Shown: positions 42,906-53,350 of the stretch, piece after piece
Layout: every line of letters begins with the position of its first letter
Position numbering within the stretch: the stretch's first letter is position 1
Source of the DNA: Acidisoma cellulosilyticum
GTDB taxonomy: Bacteria; Pseudomonadota; Alphaproteobacteria; Acetobacterales; Acetobacteraceae
DNA: 64,000 bases
Reading direction: 5' to 3'
NCBI RefSeq assembly: GCF_020621385.1
Contig: NZ_JAESVA010000003.1
Location: 1 to 64,000 of the forward strand
Notes under the pieces: model-generated
What the model saw: the letters and a program-made list of their open reading frames with translations, nothing else
Database searches by the model: none
Told to the model about the DNA's origin: nothing
Translations under genes and position numbers: made by a program

Positions 42906-43841
42906 TCATTCGGCGGCAAGACGTGTCTCTGCGCCGCTGCCATGCCGGCGGGTCTGTGCGCGCACCAGCCGTCCCATCCGACGCAGGTCGGCGTCATCGA
43001 GCTTCATCGCCGCGTCGACCCAGACATCGACGACGTCGATCAGTTCCTCGCGCGTCAGGGCATGGACGCGGTGGCGCGCCTGCAGCACGGCCTGATGGGC
43101 GTTGAAGCGACGGTCCAGCCTGGCGAGGTATTCGCGCACCGCGACCTCTCCCTCGCCGTCCTCCACCAGCATATCGACCAGACCCATCTCGTAGAGTTCG
43201 GCCGCCGAATAGACCTTGCCGCTCAGGATGATCCGCTCGGCGCGGACCGCATCCAGCCGGCGGGACAGCAAAGAATAGGCGCCCATCCCCGGGAAGAGGT
43301 TAAAGAGCACTTCGGGCAGACCAAAGGTCGCGCTGCGTTCGGCGACGATATGGTGGCAGGACAAAGCCGCCTCGAACCCGCCACCCAGAGCCGCACCTTG
43401 GACCAGAGCGACGGTCGTCACGCGCTGCCCATAGCCGATGGCATTATGATAGACGACGTCGACGCAAGCATGCGCATAGGCACGAAGCGCCGCTTTGTCT
43501 CCGGCGCGGATCTTGGCACCGAAGAGATCGAGATCACCGCCAAGATTGAACGTGCCGGCGACGCGCGATCCCACGACGAAATAGCGAAAGGGTTCGCCAA
43601 CAGCCGTGGCTAGAGCAATATCATTCTGCATACGACCCAAGTCGCGCAACAATTCCGGCGTATAGCTCGGACGTCCTTCGGGGCGCATATAGCAAAAAAG
43701 CGCCTTCGCTGCGGAATCAAGTTCCAGCTGAATGGTGGGATAGTAGCTTGCGGTCAAAGCGGACAAGGCCTCGGCCGCGACGGACGCCGACATTTCAGCA
43801 GGCGACGTGACAAGACCGAGTGATGGATTGACAAAGGTCAT
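42906..43841 (-). CDS. rpfF: RpfF-like DSF synthase (crotonase superfamily)
   Basis: 311 residues with AGGAG 6 bp before the ATG at 43841. The match to RpfF runs through the enzyme core: FNLGGDLDLF, AYAHACVDVVYH, ALVQGAALGGGFEAALS, and GLPEVLFNLFPGMGAYSLLSRR. The catalytic pair Glu157 (GGGFEAAL) and Glu177 (LPEVLF) are 20 residues apart, the spacing of Glu141/Glu161 in Xanthomonas RpfF. RpfF turns acyl-carrier-protein-bound 3-hydroxy acids into cis-2-enoic fatty-acid signals (DSF family). It is divergent from a receiver-EAL protein and an RpfC-like kinase, which strongly supports a signalling role over fatty-acid degradation. The exact acyl chain is not predictable. Confidence 0.85.
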   Translation of the reverse strand: MTFVNPSLGLVTSPAEMSASVAAEALSALTASYYPTIQLELDSAAKALFCYMRPEGRPSYTPELLRDLGRMQNDIALATAVGEPFRYFVVGSRVAGTFNLGGDLDLFGAKIRAGDKAALRAYAHACVDVVYHNAIGYGQRVTTVALVQGAALGGGFEAALSCHHIVAERSATFGLPEVLFNLFPGMGAYSLLSRRLDAVRAERIILSGKVYSAAELYEMGLVDMLVEDGEGEVAVREYLARLDRRFNAHQAVLQARHRVHALTREELIDVVDVWVDAAMKLDDADLRRMGRLVRAQTRRHGSGAETRLAAE

Positions 43842-44107
43842 AGTGAACTCCTGTGAGCGCGCGAGCAGGCCGCGCCGCCCGATCGATCGGGACCATCCCA
43901 ATTCTCGTCGGACGCTCTATTTTTCACAGGTTTTACGGAAGGAGCAGTAAGTTTCCTGCACTCATGGAAAATTGTTCGACCCGAACGGGCTGCCCGCGCC
44001 CGGATCATTCAGGCTGCTTGGAAAAATGACGCTTCCACTATAGGTTTGTGACCGTTTTTGAGATTCGGCTATCCCGGCCGAGACAAGTCGCGTCTATCGA
44101 GGATTAT
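43842..44107. promoter_or_regulatory. Divergent control region between rpfF-like and REC-EAL genes
   Basis: This 266-bp gap holds the promoters for both arms. A perfect 14-bp palindrome CCCGATCGATCGGG (43878-43891) sits 37 bp upstream of the rpfF-like start, and 43920-43970 is markedly richer in A and T than the surroundings. On the plus strand the REC-EAL gene has GAGG 5 bp before its start. No clear sigma-70 boxes could be fixed by eye. Confidence 0.4.
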
Positions 44108-46231
44108 ATGGCATTTGTCGTCATCGTCGATGATCGCGCTACGAACCGCAGCATCTTTTCGCGGCTCGCCAGCTTTTTGGACGATAACATCGAAGTCGAA
44201 GCCTTCGCGACGCCTGACCCGGCGCTGAAGGCGATCAGCAGCAAGATGCCGGACCTTGTCATTACCGACTACAAGATGCCGCAAATGACAGGGGCCGCCT
44301 TCACTCAGCAAATCCGATCCCTGCCGAACGGCGTCGATGTCCCCATTATTGTTATCACAGCCTATGATGATCGCGCATTTCGCCTTGAAGCTTTGGAAGC
44401 CGGCGCGACCGACTTCGTGCAGACGCCCATCGATCATCAGGAGTTTATTACCCGCGCCCGCAACCTGCTGAAAATCGGATCGCGCCAGAAGCAAATTCGT
44501 ATTCGGGCCAATGCTTTGGCCGAGGAATTGGCCGGCATAGAACAAGAGCGGCAGGAGTTGCTGCGCAATAGCCGCGATCGGCTGGCGCAAGTGATCGACA
44601 CCGTGCCGGCCATGGTCAGCGCCTATGATCGACGCGGCGATTGTATTTTTGCCAATGCCGAACACATTACAATTTTTGGGGATGACGACGGCAATCACAC
44701 CGCCTCGATGCGGTCGCGTCAATTGGACGCGCGGGTTTTTGCAAACGGCCTGCCGCTGCCCGCTTTCGAAGAAGAGATCATCGACCCGACGGGCATCCGA
44801 CGGGTATTTCTGACCAGCAAAGCGCCGCTCAAATCCGTCGAGAACGATGTCACCGGCGTGTTGACGACGTCGCTGGACATCACCGAACGCAAGCGCGCCG
44901 AAGACCATCTGCATTACGTGGCGCATCATGATGCCCTCACGCAATTGCCGAACCGGCATGCCCTGACGCTACGTCTGGAGGAAGCCATCGCCCGGAGCAG
45001 CGATCGGCTTGTCTTCGCCTTGCATTTTTTAAATCTCGACCGGTTTAAAAGCGTCAGTCATGCTTTCGGCTATGATAACGGAGACCATTTGCTGAGTGCG
45101 GTCGCCAAAAGGATGCAGACCTTCCTCACCAACGGCGAGATTCTGGCAAGGATTGGCGCCGATGAGTTTGGCATTCTGCAAATCGGCCTTGCGGTGGATA
45201 ATGCATCCGACGTCGCGTTTACCGTTGCTGAATCGATACGAAAAAGCTTTGAGATGCCCTTTCCCATTGCCGGGCAGAGCATTCATACCAGCGTCAGCAT
45301 CGGCACGGCTCTTTTTCCGCAAGATGGATCCACGCCGAGCGCATTGATGCAGCACGCGGACCTTGCCATGTATCGCGCCAAGTCGCTGGGGCGGAACCGC
45401 ATCTATCGTTTCGAGCCGACCTTGCAATCCGCTGTGCGGAAATCCGCCCAGCTTGAGATAGACCTTCGGGCGGGGCTGAGGCGCAACGAACTCGTGATGC
45501 ACTACCAGCCGCAAATCGATGCGCGCAGCCAGCGCATGGTGGGCGTGGAAGCCCTTCTACGCTGGGGCCCGGATGCCCATACGCTGATCTACCCCGATCA
45601 TTTCCTGCCTGTCGCCGAAGAGGCCGGGCTGATGACCGAAATTAATTTATGGGTTCTCGACGCGGCCTGCCGGCAGGCCGCCGAATGGGAAAAGAAAGGC
45701 CTCGCCATTCGCGTTGGCATTAATCTTTCGGCCTCATTGTTCCGCAGCAATGACGTGGCCGAACTGGTCAGGGCCGCCATCGCGCGCTCCGGCGTCTCGC
45801 CTCGGCTGATCGATCTTGAGCTGACCGAAACCACCCTGCTGGAAGATCACGAGGCTGCCCGCCGGCAGATTATGACCTTGCAGCAGCAAGGCGTCACGTT
45901 CTGCGTCGATGACTTCGGAACCGGCTATGCTTCCTTCGACTATATCGAGCGCCTGCGCGTCGACGGCCTCAAGATCGACCAGGGATTTGTCCATAGCATT
46001 CCGTCCCGCCCCGAGGGGATCGCCATCGCCCGTGCCATTATCGGTCTCGGCCGGGGCCTCGGTCTCAGGATCATCGCGGAGGGCGTGGAAACGCCCCAAC
46101 AAATGGCAGTCCTGCGCGACGAGGGTTGCGACGAACTCCAAGGCTATCTTTTCAGCCGGGCTTTGCCCCCATCCGAGCTTGAGACGTTTTATGCGTCTCA
46201 TTTTGTTGGCAGGATGGCCGGCTCCGGCTAG
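44108..46231 (+). CDS. RpfG-like receiver fused to PAS-GADEF-EAL (c-di-GMP phosphodiesterase)
   Basis: 707 residues. A receiver (1-125) has acidic residues DD and phospho-site Asp54 (VITDYKMP). Its sequence ITAYDDRAFRLEALEAGATDF resembles the receiver of RpfG, but the conserved Lys of receivers is Thr106 (VQTPID). A linker helix and PAS domain (about 155-260) follow, then a GGDEF domain whose site reads GADEF (350-354) and whose LNLDRFK lacks the usual first Asp, so cyclase activity is doubtful. The EAL domain (about 450-700) is intact: EALLR, NLS, ELTET, DDFGTGY, KID, EGVET, QGYLFS. It should degrade c-di-GMP. The gene lies 92 bp before the RpfC-like kinase and is its likely phosphorelay target. 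Confidence 0.85.
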   Translation: MAFVVIVDDRATNRSIFSRLASFLDDNIEVEAFATPDPALKAISSKMPDLVITDYKMPQMTGAAFTQQIRSLPNGVDVPIIVITAYDDRAFRLEALEAGATDFVQTPIDHQEFITRARNLLKIGSRQKQIRIRANALAEELAGIEQERQELLRNSRDRLAQVIDTVPAMVSAYDRRGDCIFANAEHITIFGDDDGNHTASMRSRQLDARVFANGLPLPAFEEEIIDPTGIRRVFLTSKAPLKSVENDVTGVLTTSLDITERKRAEDHLHYVAHHDALTQLPNRHALTLRLEEAIARSSDRLVFALHFLNLDRFKSVSHAFGYDNGDHLLSAVAKRMQTFLTNGEILARIGADEFGILQIGLAVDNASDVAFTVAESIRKSFEMPFPIAGQSIHTSVSIGTALFPQDGSTPSALMQHADLAMYRAKSLGRNRIYRFEPTLQSAVRKSAQLEIDLRAGLRRNELVMHYQPQIDARSQRMVGVEALLRWGPDAHTLIYPDHFLPVAEEAGLMTEINLWVLDAACRQAAEWEKKGLAIRVGINLSASLFRSNDVAELVRAAIARSGVSPRLIDLELTETTLLEDHEAARRQIMTLQQQGVTFCVDDFGTGYASFDYIERLRVDGLKIDQGFVHSIPSRPEGIAIARAIIGLGRGLGLRIIAEGVETPQQMAVLRDEGCDELQGYLFSRALPPSELETFYASHFVGRMAGSG

Positions 46232-46323
46232 TTTGCCTGGTCTCGGCAAGATCGGCCTAAGAAAACCATTCAAGACCGGGCGGGAAGATGCTGTAACGCG
46301 CGCCCAGTCTGAGTGCCAGAGCC

Positions 46324-48924
46324 ATGCCCAAACGTTTGAGGCCGAGTTTCAGAAGCAACCGATCCCCTGAGCCGAGCGCAGAATCGGAGCCGAACCACAA
46401 GCCGCGCCCTGCGGCCGTGAGCCTTGGCGGTTTGTCGATCCGGGCAAAAATCCGAACGGGTGCCGCCACGATCGGGCGCCGCCTCAGGCAAGGGACCGGA
46501 ACCGAGCACCAGATCGTCATCAATCGTCTGGTTATCGGTTTTGGCGTCTTCTTCTACCTCGCCGGGGTGCGGCTCAGCGGAAACTCCGGCGAGGACGAAA
46601 TCGTTCTGCTGAGCAGCGCTTTCTACGCTTTGCTCGGTGTCGTCTTTTTCTGCGATCTCGTGATTCGCGCCTGCCCGTCGCGGGTGAGAATCATCCTGCA
46701 GCTGATCGCCGATACCGGCATGCTGTCTTTCGGATTGCATATCGGCGGGCGCGTGACAGCCCCCCTTTACCCGATCTATCTCTGGGCCGTCCTGGGCTAT
46801 GGCTTTCGGTTCGGCCTGACCTATTTGCGGGCAGCCATGGGCTGCGCCACGGTCGGTTTCGCGGTCTGCATCCTGTCCACAACCTATTGGCGGATGGACC
46901 CCTATCTTTCCGGGGGGCTTCTGGCCGGGCTCGTCGCGATCCCGCTTTATGCCGGATCCCTCATCCGCAGCCTGTCGGTCGCCAAATCGCAAGCCGAACA
47001 GGCAAGCCAGGCCAAGAGCCAGTTTCTGGCCAGTGTCAGCCATGAACTGCGCACGCCGCTGAATGCCGTCATCGGCATGAGCGACCTGCTATCGGAAACG
47101 CGGCTGGATCGTGAACAGCGGGAGATGGTGGGAACGACCGGTGCGGCCGCACGATCCCTGCTCGGCCTGATCGACGGTATCCTCGACTTTTCGCGCATTG
47201 AGGCCGGCCAGTTCCCCGGCCAGAATCAAACCTTTGACCTTCCCGAACTTCTCTATGAGATCGAGCGACTGGTCGCGGTTCCGGCAGCCAGCAAGGCGAT
47301 TGCCCTATCGACCTATATCGACCCGATGACCCCGGCCTGCCTGATCGGCGATCCGCGGCAGATCATGGATATCCTCCGCAATCTGGCGAGCAATGCGGTC
47401 AAGTTCACCGAATGCGGCGGGGTGCTGATCGCGGTCGATGTTCTGACCCGCAGCGACGCGGAGATCACTTTGGTCTTCGAGGTCATCGATACCGGCATCG
47501 GCATAGCGGCCGAGGCGCAGGGCCGGATTTTCGACAGTTTTGCCCAGGCGGACGCCACTATCCTGGACCGTTTCGGCGGCAGCGGGCTGGGCCTTGCGAT
47601 CGCGCGCAGCCTCGCCCGGCTGCATGGCGGCGAAATCACCTTGGAGAGCAGGCTTGGTGAGGGCAGTCGTTTTCGCCTGGAATTGCCGCTGGGCATCGCC
47701 AATGGTCCAGCGCCGCCCCTGCCCCCACTGCGTCTTGCCTTGCTGAGCGCTGATCCGCAGGCGACGGACGCTCTGTCGCAGCGGTTCAGGACGCAGGGCG
47801 TGGAATTGACCGCCATGCATGTGCCCCCCGATGACGAGGCGGCTTTGGCCGCCGTCATGATGCAGACCCAAGGGCTTCATGCGGTGCTGCTGGATACGGC
47901 GAGCCTGCCCGGCGTCAGCAGCTTTATCCGGGACATGCGGCCGGAGCTTGCTGACTTTGTGCCACCCGTCATTCTGCTGAATACGGATAGGCCTGTCCCC
48001 AGCCAATTTACGCGCGATCTGCGCCGCTTCTGCCTGTCCTACCTGCCACCGGAGCCCAGCGACGCCGAGATCGAGACGGTGCTGCGCGCGGCCGCCGCGC
48101 GACTGGACCCCGACACGGCCAAGCCGCTGGCCGGGCGGTCCCAAGGGCGCTCGCTCCATATCCTCATCGCAGACGACAACCGCATCAATCAGTCGGTGGT
48201 CGCCAAAATCCTTGAACGCGGCGGCCATAGCTTCAAGATCGTCAGCAATGGCGAACAGGCGCTGGACGCGATGGAGCGGGAGGAGTTTGCCCTGGTTCTG
48301 ATGGATGTGAACATGCCGGTGATGAACGGGTTGGAGGCGACGAAGCTCTACCGCTTTGCCACGGCGGGAGAACGGCATCTGCCGATCCTGGCGCTCACGG
48401 CCGATGCCACACCCGAGATGGCGGCGCGTTGCATCGAGTCGGGCATGGATCTTTGCATCGTCAAGCCGATCGAGGCCGGCCGCCTGTTGGATATCGTCGC
48501 CAATTTCAGCGATGCGGCAGGACTGCCAGCGCGCGCCGCCGGCCTTCCCGCCCCCGTCGCCGCCCAGGAACGCCCGGCCCAAACGTTAAGCCCGCGCATG
48601 CTGCGAGAGCTTGAGCTGCTGGGCGGCGCTGTCTTTGCGACCGAACTCGCTCATGAATTCATCGCCGATGCGGAAGCGCTGATGCTCTCGCTGCGGGTTG
48701 CGGCCCGCGCAGGCGACGGCGTTCTTTTTCAGGCGGAAGCCCATGCCTTGAGCAGTGCCGCCGCCAATATCGGCGCCGAAGCGGTCCACGCGCTCTGCCG
48801 CCAGTTCCGTCGGCTGAACCTCGCCGATCAGGCGGAATGTCAGCGCGCGTTATTGAACCTGGCCCAGGAGGTCGACCGGGTCGCGGAGGCCTTGCGGGCG
48901 AAATACGACGCTCCCAAAGTCTGA
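46324..48924 (+). CDS. rpfC: RpfC-like hybrid sensor kinase (TM-HisKA-HATPase-pseudoREC-REC-Hpt)
   Basis: 866 residues. About five membrane segments (65-215) resemble the DSF-sensing region of RpfC ([18 protein letters not shown]-like [18 protein letters not shown]). The kinase core has His240 in [18 protein letters not shown] (N box), DTGIGI and GSGLGLAI. Residues about 468-595 form a degenerate receiver that keeps one Asp (LLDTAS); a true receiver follows with Asp661 (LMDVNMP) and its Lys (VKPIE). The C-terminal Hpt has His807 in [13 protein letters not shown]. Xanthomonas RpfC has the same order but one receiver, so the extra pseudo-receiver is distinctive. It likely phosphorylates the preceding REC-EAL protein. 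Confidence 0.85.
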
Positions 48925-49193: not shown

Positions 49194-50189
49194 ATGGTGA
49201 CAGAAAAGCTACAGCGGGAAATCCAGGAGAAAATGCGGACCCCGCCGGGTCGCGTGCTCCGTGCGACGACGCTTGCCATGGTTTCCGACTATATGTCCCT
49301 GAACGCGGCCGGCTGCGCCTTCTATGCGACGCTTGCCTTGTTTCCGGCCATGACCATGCTGATTTCCATCTATGGCATGGTCTTCGACCCCGTAACGGTG
49401 GAACCGCAGCTTGCCTATCTGCGGCAGATCATGCCGAGCGCCGCCTATCAGCTGCTGTCCGACCGGGTGCATGAACTGGTCAGCAACCACAGCGGGACGC
49501 TGACCATCAGCCTCGCCGTCAGCCTCATGATCGCCTTCTGGTCGGCTGCATCCGGCACCAAATCCCTGATCTGGGCGCTGAATTTCGCCTATCGCCGGAA
49601 AGAGACGCGGAGCGTCCTACAGTTCCAGGCGCTCGCGATGATGATGACCTTCGGCGCCATCCTGGCCGCCGTGCTTGGCATCGGCGTACTGGTCGGCCTG
49701 CCCACGGCATTTTCCGCGCTCGGCCTGTCCCGCTATACGGCGCAGCTGGCGCATCTATCGGGCATTGCCGGGCTATTCGCCTTCGTCCTCGGCATGCTGT
49801 CACTCTTCTACAAGATCGGGCCGGCACCGCATCCGGATGGGGTCGGGCCCGTGTTGCCCGGCGCATTGACCGCCGCCATTCTCTGGCTGCTGGTCTCAGG
49901 CATCTTCTCCTTTTACGTCAGCAATATCGCGAGCTACAGCGCCGCCTACGGCGCGCTGGGGGCGGCCGTCGGTGTCATGATGTGGTTCTGGGTGAGCGCC
50001 TATGCCGTGCTGTTCGGTGCCGAGCTGAACGCCCAGATCGACCGTGTGCGCAAACCGAACCGCCCCCGTGACGGCGGCTTGCGCACCCCTGCCGCGCACG
50101 AGCTTTTTGCGCCGGAAAACATCAGCCCCCCCGCGGACGAGGGCGCGGCGCCAGCCTCAATCGGCCGCGGCACCGATCCGCGCGACTGA
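49194..50189 (+). CDS. YihY/BrkB-family inner-membrane protein
   Basis: 331 residues with six hydrophobic segments and the family motifs YMSLNAAGCAFYATLALFPA near residue 32 and SAYAVLFGAELNAQIDR near the end of the last segment. YihY proteins are conserved inner-membrane proteins of uncertain function (formerly mislabelled RNase BN). The C-terminal 60 residues are charged and disordered. Its last 33 bases overlap, on the opposite strand, the 3' end of the large glycosyltransferase gene. Confidence 0.88.
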   Translation: MVTEKLQREIQEKMRTPPGRVLRATTLAMVSDYMSLNAAGCAFYATLALFPAMTMLISIYGMVFDPVTVEPQLAYLRQIMPSAAYQLLSDRVHELVSNHSGTLTISLAVSLMIAFWSAASGTKSLIWALNFAYRRKETRSVLQFQALAMMMTFGAILAAVLGIGVLVGLPTAFSALGLSRYTAQLAHLSGIAGLFAFVLGMLSLFYKIGPAPHPDGVGPVLPGALTAAILWLLVSGIFSFYVSNIASYSAAYGALGAAVGVMMWFWVSAYAVLFGAELNAQIDRVRKPNRPRDGGLRTPAAHELFAPENISPPADEGAAPASIGRGTDPRD

Positions 50190-53183
50190 GACAGGCTTAG
50201 CCGAACGGCTTTTCCTGCCCGGTTGCGCACGGGGTGCGACCTTGCCCGGACGCGGGCGCCCCAGACTGACCGGCACGACACGCGGCGCCAAGGATGGGCA
50301 TTCCGCCAGGCGCAGCTTGTGGTCCGCCCCATAGAGTTCCAGCAGCGGGCTGTAATAAGGGTCGCCGCCGGTCAACAAACCCTGCCAATCCCGCCGAAAA
50401 TTGGAATCATCCTGCGGATGTTTCAACTGCGCCTTGGCGATGCGGGTCACCGATTCGTGGTGAAAGAGCAAGGTCCGGCCGTCATAGATGAGTTTGTAGC
50501 CGGCTTGGCCGATGCGGAGGCAAAGATCGGTGTCGTTGAAGCCGACGGCATAGGCCTCATTGAAGCCGCCGATCTCGTCGAAGACCGACCGGCGCATCAT
50601 CATGCAGGCAGCCGTCACGGCCGAGAAATCCCGCACGGCGGTCAGGGAGGCATTATAGCCGAGATTGCGGCTGCCATCCTGGTTCCAGACGGGTTCGAAC
50701 CGCAGCGCATGATCGGCCAGACCATTGATGCCGACGATGACACCGGCATGCTGCATGCGCTTGTCGCTATACATCAACGCAGTACCCGTCGCCCCGATAT
50801 CGGGACGGGCTGCCAGCGACCGCATCCGCTCAAACCACCCGGCCTCTACCGCCTCGATGTCATTGTTCATGAAAAGAACGAAAGGCTCGTTCTGACCATG
50901 CGTGCGAATGGCGAGATTATTCATCCGCGCATAGTTGAACTTGCCCTGATACGGCATGACGGTGTGACGCTTCGCCAGCTGCGCCAGATATTTCTTGGAT
51001 TGCGCTTCCCGCGATTCATGGTCGATGACGACAAGCCTGTATTCGCTGGCCGGCACCGTCGCCTCGATCGACGAGATGCATTGGCGCAGCACGTCGATCC
51101 CATCCTTGGTGGGGATGACAATGAGCACGCGCCCGCCAGGGTCAGGCCAGGCGATCTCGAACTGGTTAAATTCATCCGCGGGCCTGGCCAAGGCCCCCGT
51201 TTTCAACCGATCGAGATGGCGCTGGATAGCGGCGGTCGTCGCCGCCATCACCTGGCCCTGCTTCTCGTGCCCTGTGCTAGTGGCGTGCGTTCGCCAGCGA
51301 TAGAGCACCCGCGGAATATGCGCGACGCGCTGACTTTCTTCGATGACACGCAGGATAAAATCGACATCGGCGGAAATAGCCAAGCTTGCGTCGAACCCGC
51401 CGATCCGTTGAGCAATCTCCGTCCGCACCGCGATCATATGCACGAGATAAGGATGGGACAAATAATAGTCATGAGAGAAGGCGGGTCTTGCCCGCACGTC
51501 CAACACGACGGAACTATCCTCGGCCGTCAAAGCCTCGTCGCTATAGATGAAATCGGCGCCGGTCTTGCGCGCGGCGGTTATGAGATGATGGACGGCATCC
51601 GGTTCCAACACATCATCATGATCCATCAGCGCGACATAGGGATAGCGCGCGGCCTGGATGCCGCGCGTCGTGGCGCCCGCGATCCCCTCGTTGCGCGGCG
51701 CGCGAAGAACGCGAATGCGCGGCTCGGTCTGCGCGAACCAGGCCAGCATGGCCGCGACATGCGGTTCCGTCGATGCATCATCAACACAGATGAGTTCCCA
51801 GGCGCCACACCATTGTTGACAGACGGACCGCAGCGCCTCCGTCAACCAATCCCGCCTTGTATTGTAGACCGGCATGATCAGCGAAATACCTGTGCCGTCC
51901 GCCTGTCGGTTCATCCGCTGACGCAGGCGCCCCAATACGCGCGGCGGAATGCCCCGATCCGGCGTCAGGTAGGTCAGGATATTGGGATTGATCCTGGGCT
52001 GCCTTGGACCGCCGTTCAGAATGACGCCACTATCCTTGATGCGCACCGTGATATCGCGGCCGAACAAGGTATGGAGCGGCTCCTCCAGAACAATCCTGTA
52101 GCCACAACGATCCGTGTAATAGCCGGCTTCCAGGACATCGCGGCGCAACCCGTTGGCAAGCGCGGTGCCGATCACCCGACCTTCGCATAACGCCTCCACG
52201 GTACAGGGCTTACCCGGCTTGCTGAGATCGATCACCCAACCGCAGGCCTGATTGCCGTCGATATTGTCGAAGATGCCGCGAATGGTCTCGGCCGCCTGAA
52301 CAACTTGCGGGCTGTGCACAAGGTGGGTTTTGGTACCAGCCAAGACGACAGAGACAATGTCGCCACGCACAAGCTTGCCGAGAATCGCCTTCTCGACGGT
52401 GAAGGCGCTGGAAAACTTCCCTTTGTGCGATTTCAGGTCCGGTCGCGATTCCCGCGCAAGGATGGTCGCGACCAGACGGTCGCCGACCAGAATATCGAGG
52501 CTGACCGGATGCTTTGGCCTTGCCAGGTCTATCGCCCAGCCGCGTATCTGATCCCCCGCGGCCTGGTCGACATAGCCGACGAAACCGACAGCCTCGGCTG
52601 ACACCGGAACGGGCTCGGCCATGCGGCGCCCGCCGACATAAAGCGTCAGTGGGTTTGCTTGATCATTAGGCAACAGCCGAAGCAGCGGCAATGATGCCGC
52701 ATAGCGCGTGCGGCTGCTTTCGCTGCGTTTGGCCGCTTCCAGCATGCCGCCCGCGACGGCCATGCCATGATCATCGACCAGAATAACGGCCAGTGCCGTG
52801 ACGGGACGCCCGGCCATGCTCACGGTCATGAGACATTCCCCGCGCCCGATCTCCGCCCGTTCGATCGACGGCGACAATATCTGCTCAAGCGACAAGGGCG
52901 CCGCGAGCACGCTTCTGTTTGTAGCCTGATCAACCAAGTCAATCGCAAGCGGCAAAAGACGGGGCGGAAGCGTGAAATGCAGCTCGGCCGATGGGCGACT
53001 GACCGATATCTGCGTCACGGCCTTGCCGTCCAGAAGCACAGTCAGAACGCCGGGGCCGAACAGGTCAGGCCCTTTTTTCTGCAGTTGAACGGTCTGGCGA
53101 TCGATGGTGATCGTGACCGAGCCGGATTGCGGCAGCGGCCCGCTTACACGAGTGGAACGAGACGGTCCTGTCTTCTGCACCAT
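50157..53183 (-). CDS. Large glycosyltransferase with two GT2 domains and duplicated N-terminal modules
   Basis: 1008 residues. Two GT-A fold family 2 domains are seen. The first begins ISLIMPVYNTRRDWLTEALRSV and has VDDAS and DHDDVLEPDAV. The second begins VLIVIPTKDGIDVL and has FMNNDIEAVEAGW and an acidic FNDTDLCLRI. The N-terminal half (about 1-420) contains at least two copies of a roughly 100-residue module: GYVDQAAGDQIRGWAIDL and NIDGNQACGWVIDLSKPGKP, each with a V.R.DL-type end. It probably builds a cell-surface polysaccharide. Start at 53183; the frame is open 18 codons further. Confidence 0.82.
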   Translation of the reverse strand: MVQKTGPSRSTRVSGPLPQSGSVTITIDRQTVQLQKKGPDLFGPGVLTVLLDGKAVTQISVSRPSAELHFTLPPRLLPLAIDLVDQATNRSVLAAPLSLEQILSPSIERAEIGRGECLMTVSMAGRPVTALAVILVDDHGMAVAGGMLEAAKRSESSRTRYAASLPLLRLLPNDQANPLTLYVGGRRMAEPVPVSAEAVGFVGYVDQAAGDQIRGWAIDLARPKHPVSLDILVGDRLVATILARESRPDLKSHKGKFSSAFTVEKAILGKLVRGDIVSVVLAGTKTHLVHSPQVVQAAETIRGIFDNIDGNQACGWVIDLSKPGKPCTVEALCEGRVIGTALANGLRRDVLEAGYYTDRCGYRIVLEEPLHTLFGRDITVRIKDSGVILNGGPRQPRINPNILTYLTPDRGIPPRVLGRLRQRMNRQADGTGISLIMPVYNTRRDWLTEALRSVCQQWCGAWELICVDDASTEPHVAAMLAWFAQTEPRIRVLRAPRNEGIAGATTRGIQAARYPYVALMDHDDVLEPDAVHHLITAARKTGADFIYSDEALTAEDSSVVLDVRARPAFSHDYYLSHPYLVHMIAVRTEIAQRIGGFDASLAISADVDFILRVIEESQRVAHIPRVLYRWRTHATSTGHEKQGQVMAATTAAIQRHLDRLKTGALARPADEFNQFEIAWPDPGGRVLIVIPTKDGIDVLRQCISSIEATVPASEYRLVVIDHESREAQSKKYLAQLAKRHTVMPYQGKFNYARMNNLAIRTHGQNEPFVLFMNNDIEAVEAGWFERMRSLAARPDIGATGTALMYSDKRMQHAGVIVGINGLADHALRFEPVWNQDGSRNLGYNASLTAVRDFSAVTAACMMMRRSVFDEIGGFNEAYAVGFNDTDLCLRIGQAGYKLIYDGRTLLFHHESVTRIAKAQLKHPQDDSNFRRDWQGLLTGGDPYYSPLLELYGADHKLRLAECPSLAPRVVPVSLGRPRPGKVAPRAQPGRKSRSAKPVSVARIGAAAD

Positions 53184-53350
53184 TGTGTCGCCCCTGCTCT
53201 CCCTCCCTGTATCGCTGGTCGGGCGGTCGCGGATCAACCCTTACCAGGACTTGTCCGGCAGGTTTTGATCATCCGCGTTCGGGGACCGGTGCAGACCCTG
53301 CGCATTCGCAAAGGGTCCGCACCTCAGGCTAAGCCTTGAGATCAGCCGGC

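Follow-up and report, generated by a model that had tools for sequence, protein, structure and literature searches.

Signalling through diffusible signal factors (DSF) has been described with two core perception pathways, RpfC/RpfG and RpfR (PMC4504480). In the RpfF/RpfC/RpfG system of Xanthomonas and other gammaproteobacteria, the gene of the RpfF synthase adjoins those of an RpfC kinase with the order HisKA-HATPase-REC-Hpt and of RpfG, a REC-HD-GYP protein that removes cyclic di-GMP (c-di-GMP), while in Burkholderia and Cronobacter an RpfF-family enzyme is encoded next to RpfR, a PAS-GGDEF-EAL protein. Outside the xanthomonads, a complete rpf cluster with an HD-GYP RpfG is known from Leptospirillum (PMC8357829), and complete DSF systems have been described for Acidithiobacillus and Leptospirillum in a survey of acidophiles, Acidiphilium among them (PMC9040811). 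The presence of the RpfC-RpfG pair in alphaproteobacteria is not new either, because a survey based on KEGG orthology reports it there (PMC8895600). Here we analyze a stretch of 64,000 nucleotides (the window; contig NZ_JAESVA010000003.1, positions 1 to 64,000) of Acidisoma cellulosilyticum (family Acetobacteraceae in GTDB), which has a genome of 6.0 Mb in 59 contigs and is, as an initial annotation of the bare sequence had supposed, an alphaproteobacterium. Three intact genes at positions 42906-48924 of the window encode an RpfF-like enzyme, an RpfG-type response regulator with a different output and an RpfC-like hybrid kinase; the proposal that synthesis, sensing and c-di-GMP output are encoded together here is supported.

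The module is real and conserved and is of the DSF type, with sensor and receiver kept and the output exchanged. The gene for the rpfF-like DSF-family synthase of the crotonase fold (42906..43841, minus strand) encodes 311 amino acids from the ATG at 43841, a start preceded by AGGAG and preferred over the TTG at 43901 that would lengthen the protein. It is divergent from the genes of the receiver protein (44108..46231, plus strand, 707 amino acids from an ATG that is preceded by GAGG and preferred over the GTG at 44048) and of the membrane hybrid histidine kinase (46324..48924, plus strand), which presumably form one operon. The 266-base gap (43842..44107) is presumed to hold both promoters.

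The window crotonase can be assigned by sequence to the RpfF family, outside the ordinary crotonases tested, as the initial annotation had proposed. Searched against the sequences in PDB, it scores 209.5 bits with the solved RpfF 3m6m, to which it is 47% identical, versus 57.6 bits with the best ordinary crotonase-type protein. The top four entries of the list, at 195.9-212.2 bits, are RpfF-type chains: 3m6m and 6dgn, which are named RpfF, and 7zq7 and 5fus, which are named crotonase or enoyl-CoA hydratase. We take 3m6m to be the Xanthomonas RpfF, which fits the RpfC partner chain in the same structure. Over 250 residues, 7zq7 shares 98-100% identity with the RpfF proteins from three genomes in which the rpfF-rpfC-REC cluster is complete. 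The wide NCBIfam family NF006452 is passed with 371 bits (cut-off 177). In a tree of 116 rows, built without the duplicate loci L129, L130, L186, L189 and L191 and without the short loci L085-L114, the window protein falls into a clade of 12 rows (support 100/99) that it shares with its own genus, Gluconacetobacter and one Acetobacter; the Xanthomonas type (100/97) and the RpfR-partnered type (100/100) are separate clades, and five ordinary crotonases sit on a common branch of length 4.46 (100/99). Two outgroup rows of this tree are unreliable: L003_generic, with a branch of about 10, is the longest open frame of its locus, chosen in the absence of a BLAST match, and may not be the crotonase, and L127_generic2 is a stray long row. 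With the window protein among the RpfFs of Acetobacteraceae and the Xanthomonas type in a clade of its own, a recent transfer from xanthomonads is unsupported. The two catalytic glutamates (codons 43371-43373 and 43311-43313, minus strand; E177 and E197 when counted from the TTG) are present at the 20-residue spacing given in the initial annotation, and the pair occurs in all 109 RpfF rows. The spacing is not diagnostic for RpfF, however, because four of the seven non-RpfF rows of the same alignment have both residues; the score gap and the tree are the better evidence.

The kinase has the domain order HisKA-HATPase-REC-Hpt (Pfam) behind a membrane sensor of about five helices recognized by hydropathy. 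Its N-terminal sensor aligns over the full length with gammaproteobacterial RpfC, including the DSF-binding segment of the Xanthomonas protein, and the resemblance to the Xanthomonas sensor that had been read from its membrane region is supported. The stretch matching this segment lies at 46477..46512 (plus strand) and ends in GTGTEHQ, the residue roles being those given in PMC5391125. Residue E61 of the window kinase corresponds to E19 of Xanthomonas RpfC, in a numbering transferred through the xanthomonad-like row L115 and not through Xanthomonas RpfC itself; this column holds E in 78 of the 79 rows of the sensor alignment, from which 4 of 82 kinases lacking the searched motif were omitted, and the position of R26 holds R in 77 of the 79. 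The receiver domain of the kinase matches that of RpfC in its solved structure (chain D of 3m6m) with 93.4 bits. The host genome was searched for further RpfC sensors and none was found, the best other match having an E-value of 0.77.

The receiver protein differs from Xanthomonas RpfG, and likewise from the RpfG of Leptospirillum, in its architecture, which according to Pfam is REC-PAS_4-GGDEF-EAL (all on the plus strand: REC, 44117..44458; PAS region, 44498..44923; GGDEF, 44921..45400; EAL c-di-GMP phosphodiesterase domain, 45461..46159) in place of REC-HD-GYP. REC trees were built with 31 of the collected receiver proteins (81 and that of the window). The window REC and seven RpfG RECs form a clade (100/99) that excludes 26 other REC rows from the host, and a second tree with eight more proteins, which also takes in the closest RECs of 11 genomes lacking rpfF and omits seven long-branch host RECs, retains the RpfG-type clade at 94/95; five of the 11 genomes labelled as lacking rpfF were checked for it afterwards and none of the five had it. 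Four of the seven RpfG proteins (L067, L115, L132 and L133) carry the HD_5 (HD-GYP) domain in Pfam, and the other three were assigned by the HD and GYP motifs in their sequences. The earlier label RpfG-like fits the REC domain alone, since the predicted output is PAS-GGDEF-EAL instead of HD-GYP. Among 60 GGDEF-EAL proteins, the examined positions of the catalytic acid, Asn and Lys of EAL are invariant (60/60), the window protein included, and the GGDEF motif is exact in 51; that of the window is the degenerate GADEF. A tree of 19 of these 60 proteins recovers an RpfR clade (97/97) and a group of proteins from trios like the present one (88/80), with the window part outside the RpfR clade. Membership of the receiver protein in RpfR was therefore rejected: it has a REC, which the RpfR-type proteins scanned do not, its GGDEF-EAL part is outside their clade, and its PAS matches RpfR with an E-value of 0.0017. 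A REC-HD-GYP RpfG elsewhere in the host was also considered and rejected, the one HD_5 match (C5:31533) having no REC match listed nearby.

Related receivers carry other outputs. An RpfG-type REC, in most cases with PAS, is fused to a histidine-kinase-like output in L066, L076, L080, L082, L193, L194, L196, L236-L243, L246, L247 and L249-L251, and in the Roseomonas-type loci L037, L039, L044, L051, L053 and L195 a REC-PAS protein with no recognised output (by Pfam in L037, L039, L051 and L053) stands beside rpfC and rpfF.

Linkage of the three genes was examined in 80 loci, the best 80 of 585 relatives picked by similarity to the window RpfF. An RpfC-type kinase and a REC-PAS-GGDEF-EAL protein stand beside rpfF in 54 of them (in L058 at a distance of 7-9 kb), and the remaining 26 comprise five with REC-PAS only, four with a REC-PAS-kinase, one with REC-HD-GYP (Thioalkalivibrio), one with the kinase alone and 15 with neither. 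The RpfC-type gene is near rpfF in 65 of the 80 loci, and 12 of the other 15 genomes have an RpfC-type sensor beyond the rpfF neighborhood examined, bringing synthase and sensor together in 77 of 80. Because the loci were chosen by RpfF similarity, the share with GGDEF-EAL (54/80) is biased to window-like loci. In a sample of the class, for which 289 genomes were queried with the receiver, 194 gave a match and the top 29 by receiver E-value (24 and 5) were checked for rpfF, 18 genomes besides the host have a receiver match of at least 120 bits, and their output is kinase-like, the commoner form, in 16 and GGDEF-EAL in two. Sixteen of the 18 have rpfF, in 13 cases within about 6 kb, and the two without it are 82% and 85% complete; among the next 11 class genomes by receiver match (about 66-106 bits), none has rpfF. 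The receiver tracks rpfF in the class sample. In the phylum sample, 62 of 398 genomes have rpfF, the host included, and within the host genus all five genomes examined, again with the host, have rpfF and the trio. Loci were found in Gluconacetobacter, Roseomonas, Microvirga, Pseudovibrio, Rhizobium and others, and the system is not restricted to a single lineage: it is widespread though patchy in the class, in which the RpfC-RpfG pair had already been reported.

On these data, the locus probably encodes a DSF-type cell-cell signalling module, in which RpfF would make a cis-2-enoic acid, the RpfC-like kinase would sense it and the REC-PAS-GGDEF-EAL protein would lower c-di-GMP. As its family suggests, RpfF would convert a 3-hydroxyacyl-acyl carrier protein to the free cis-2-enoic fatty acid, which the kinase would perceive through its N-terminal segment and membrane helices. 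The domain order suggests that phosphate would pass from the REC and Hpt domains of the kinase to the REC of the neighboring receiver protein, whose phosphorylation would be expected to switch on EAL, so that c-di-GMP would fall. The chemical outcome, removal of c-di-GMP, would be the same as with RpfG, through an unrelated enzyme. Several observations weigh against this reading. The window RpfF misses the cut-off of the narrow NCBIfam RpfF equivalog NF053515 (238.6 versus 550 bits), one row of the RpfF type, L127_F, falls with the ordinary crotonases, albeit on long branches (83/76), and in the host family rpfF is present in only 10 of 36 genomes, own genus included, and in none of five further family genomes of the phylum sample. 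The place of the kinase in an RpfC clade, which the initial annotation expected, is backed by the RpfC-type sensor, but the tree of the kinase core, built with 24 of 83 kinases (L249_midHK3 and L236_midHK6, labelled midHK, are RpfC kinases by position), supports the RpfC group at 84/54 only. Finally, the window residues at R15, D17, S18, E19 and Q22 of RpfC are G, G, T, E and I; two of the five residues needed for DSF sensing are kept or allowed, and the other three (R15, D17 and Q22) are altered. In Xanthomonas RpfC, the substitutions D17A, S18A and Q22A leave 22.9-32.9% of the response and R15A and E19A leave 39.0-66.1%, and S18T is a natural, active variant (PMC5391125). Over all 79 sensor rows, the gammaproteobacterial ones included, R15 is R in 50 and D17 is D in 58, and at the position of Q22 the most frequent residue is M (43 rows), followed by I and Q (15 each). 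We read the kinase as a putative receptor of the family with an altered ligand preference, which falls short of proof of DSF sensing.

The altered positions, together with the M that most rows have at Q22 and the 47% identity of the window RpfF to 3m6m, lend some weight to the possibility that the module works with a ligand other than DSF or BDSF, RpfF making, or RpfC sensing, another medium- or long-chain or membrane-derived free fatty acid, in which case it would be a sensor of lipid status and not of quorum. We regard this as a possible but not a probable account, given the activity of S18T and the co-occurrence of synthase and sensor in 77 of 80 cases, which is expected for a signal and its receptor. 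A response protein that works chiefly as a diguanylate cyclase, raising c-di-GMP, across the family at large is unlikely: the exact GGDEF motif of 51 of the 60 proteins would suit such a role, but the EAL catalytic positions are intact in all 60 and the window motif is GADEF. Least credible by far is an ordinary enoyl-CoA hydratase that lies beside a hybrid kinase by chance. The crotonase fold and the glutamate pair shared with ordinary crotonases are compatible with a hydratase, but the bit-score gap (209.5 versus 57.6) and the RpfF tree, in which the protein lies outside the degradative crotonases, led us to reject it, and linkage to the RpfC-type gene in 65 of 80 loci also argues against chance.

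Within the preferred reading of the locus as a DSF-type module, the PAS domain might have a part of its own. The PAS region is found in receiver proteins whose output is GGDEF-EAL or a histidine kinase and also in those that lack any other recognised domain, and its best match outside these, among the RpfR and host proteins compared, has 31 bits. Kept while the outputs differ, PAS would probably add a second, intracellular input. The AlphaFold model has a PAS fold flanked by two long helices, with a mean predicted local distance difference test (pLDDT) score of 86.5. Compared with solved structures by sequence, the region matches various PAS domains best and the PAS of RpfR weakly, at the E-value given above. 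The first Foldseek match of the model is the PAS of Rv1364c (3k3c; E-value 3.3e-06), a fatty-acid binder, but dozens of other PAS/LOV domains score nearly alike, and the 50 matches listed include no RpfR chain; the sequence and the modelled fold point to no specific ligand. Among DSF sensors, RpfR and RpfS likewise rely on PAS domains (PMC4504480). A speculative extension, which we consider rather doubtful, is that the RpfG receiver became, in alphaproteobacteria, a REC-PAS core that took on varied outputs (GGDEF-EAL in the window, kinase-like in 16 of 18 class-sample genomes, none recognised in some Roseomonas). Its PAS would bind the RpfF product or its acyl precursor and merge the outside signal relayed by RpfC with the inside pool, which would add a third architecture to the RpfC/RpfG and RpfR routes of DSF perception.

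In comparison with the described systems, the window resembles Xanthomonas in the RpfF family, the type of kinase, the RpfG-type REC, the adjacency of the genes and the predicted hydrolysis of c-di-GMP, but rpfF is divergent from the regulators in the window and its genus and convergent in Xanthomonas (PMC4504480) and in Gluconacetobacter. No description of an RpfG relative with a GGDEF-EAL output was found in the literature, as judged by titles and the opening lines of abstracts in a search that most subscription papers lay outside. If the proposed reading is correct, DSF-type signalling would be widespread, though patchy, in alphaproteobacteria and not mainly a matter of xanthomonads and Burkholderia. 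The enzymes that tie it to c-di-GMP would then have been exchanged for unrelated ones behind a conserved sensor and receiver. Named Gluconacetobacter strains have the same trio, which makes direct testing possible.

Some loci depart from these arrangements. The Inquilinus-type loci L022:13746-15493, L024:13695-15804 and L033:4145-5068 have one or two extra short genes with an RpfC sensor and a partial HisKA only, recalling Xanthomonas rpfH, which encodes an input-domain protein of unknown function (PMC4504480). In two class genomes (L127:7737-11052 and L131:5012-8425), rpfF stands beside a PAS-GGDEF-EAL protein of about 800 residues that lacks REC and has an N-terminus like membrane helices, possibly another sensor arrangement, and at L134:8670-10622 a MerR-type DNA-binding domain is fused to PAS-GGDEF-EAL beside rpfF.

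A search for LuxI in the host genome gave no match, but its control was without a match anywhere too, and Rfam at gathering thresholds gave none either. The trio and the adjoining genes for an M3 oligopeptidase and an ABC1 kinase are retained in all four genus relatives. Near the module, at 50157-53237 of the window (minus strand), lies the gene of a long glycosyltransferase with two family-2 stretches, possibly a polysaccharide target under the control of c-di-GMP.

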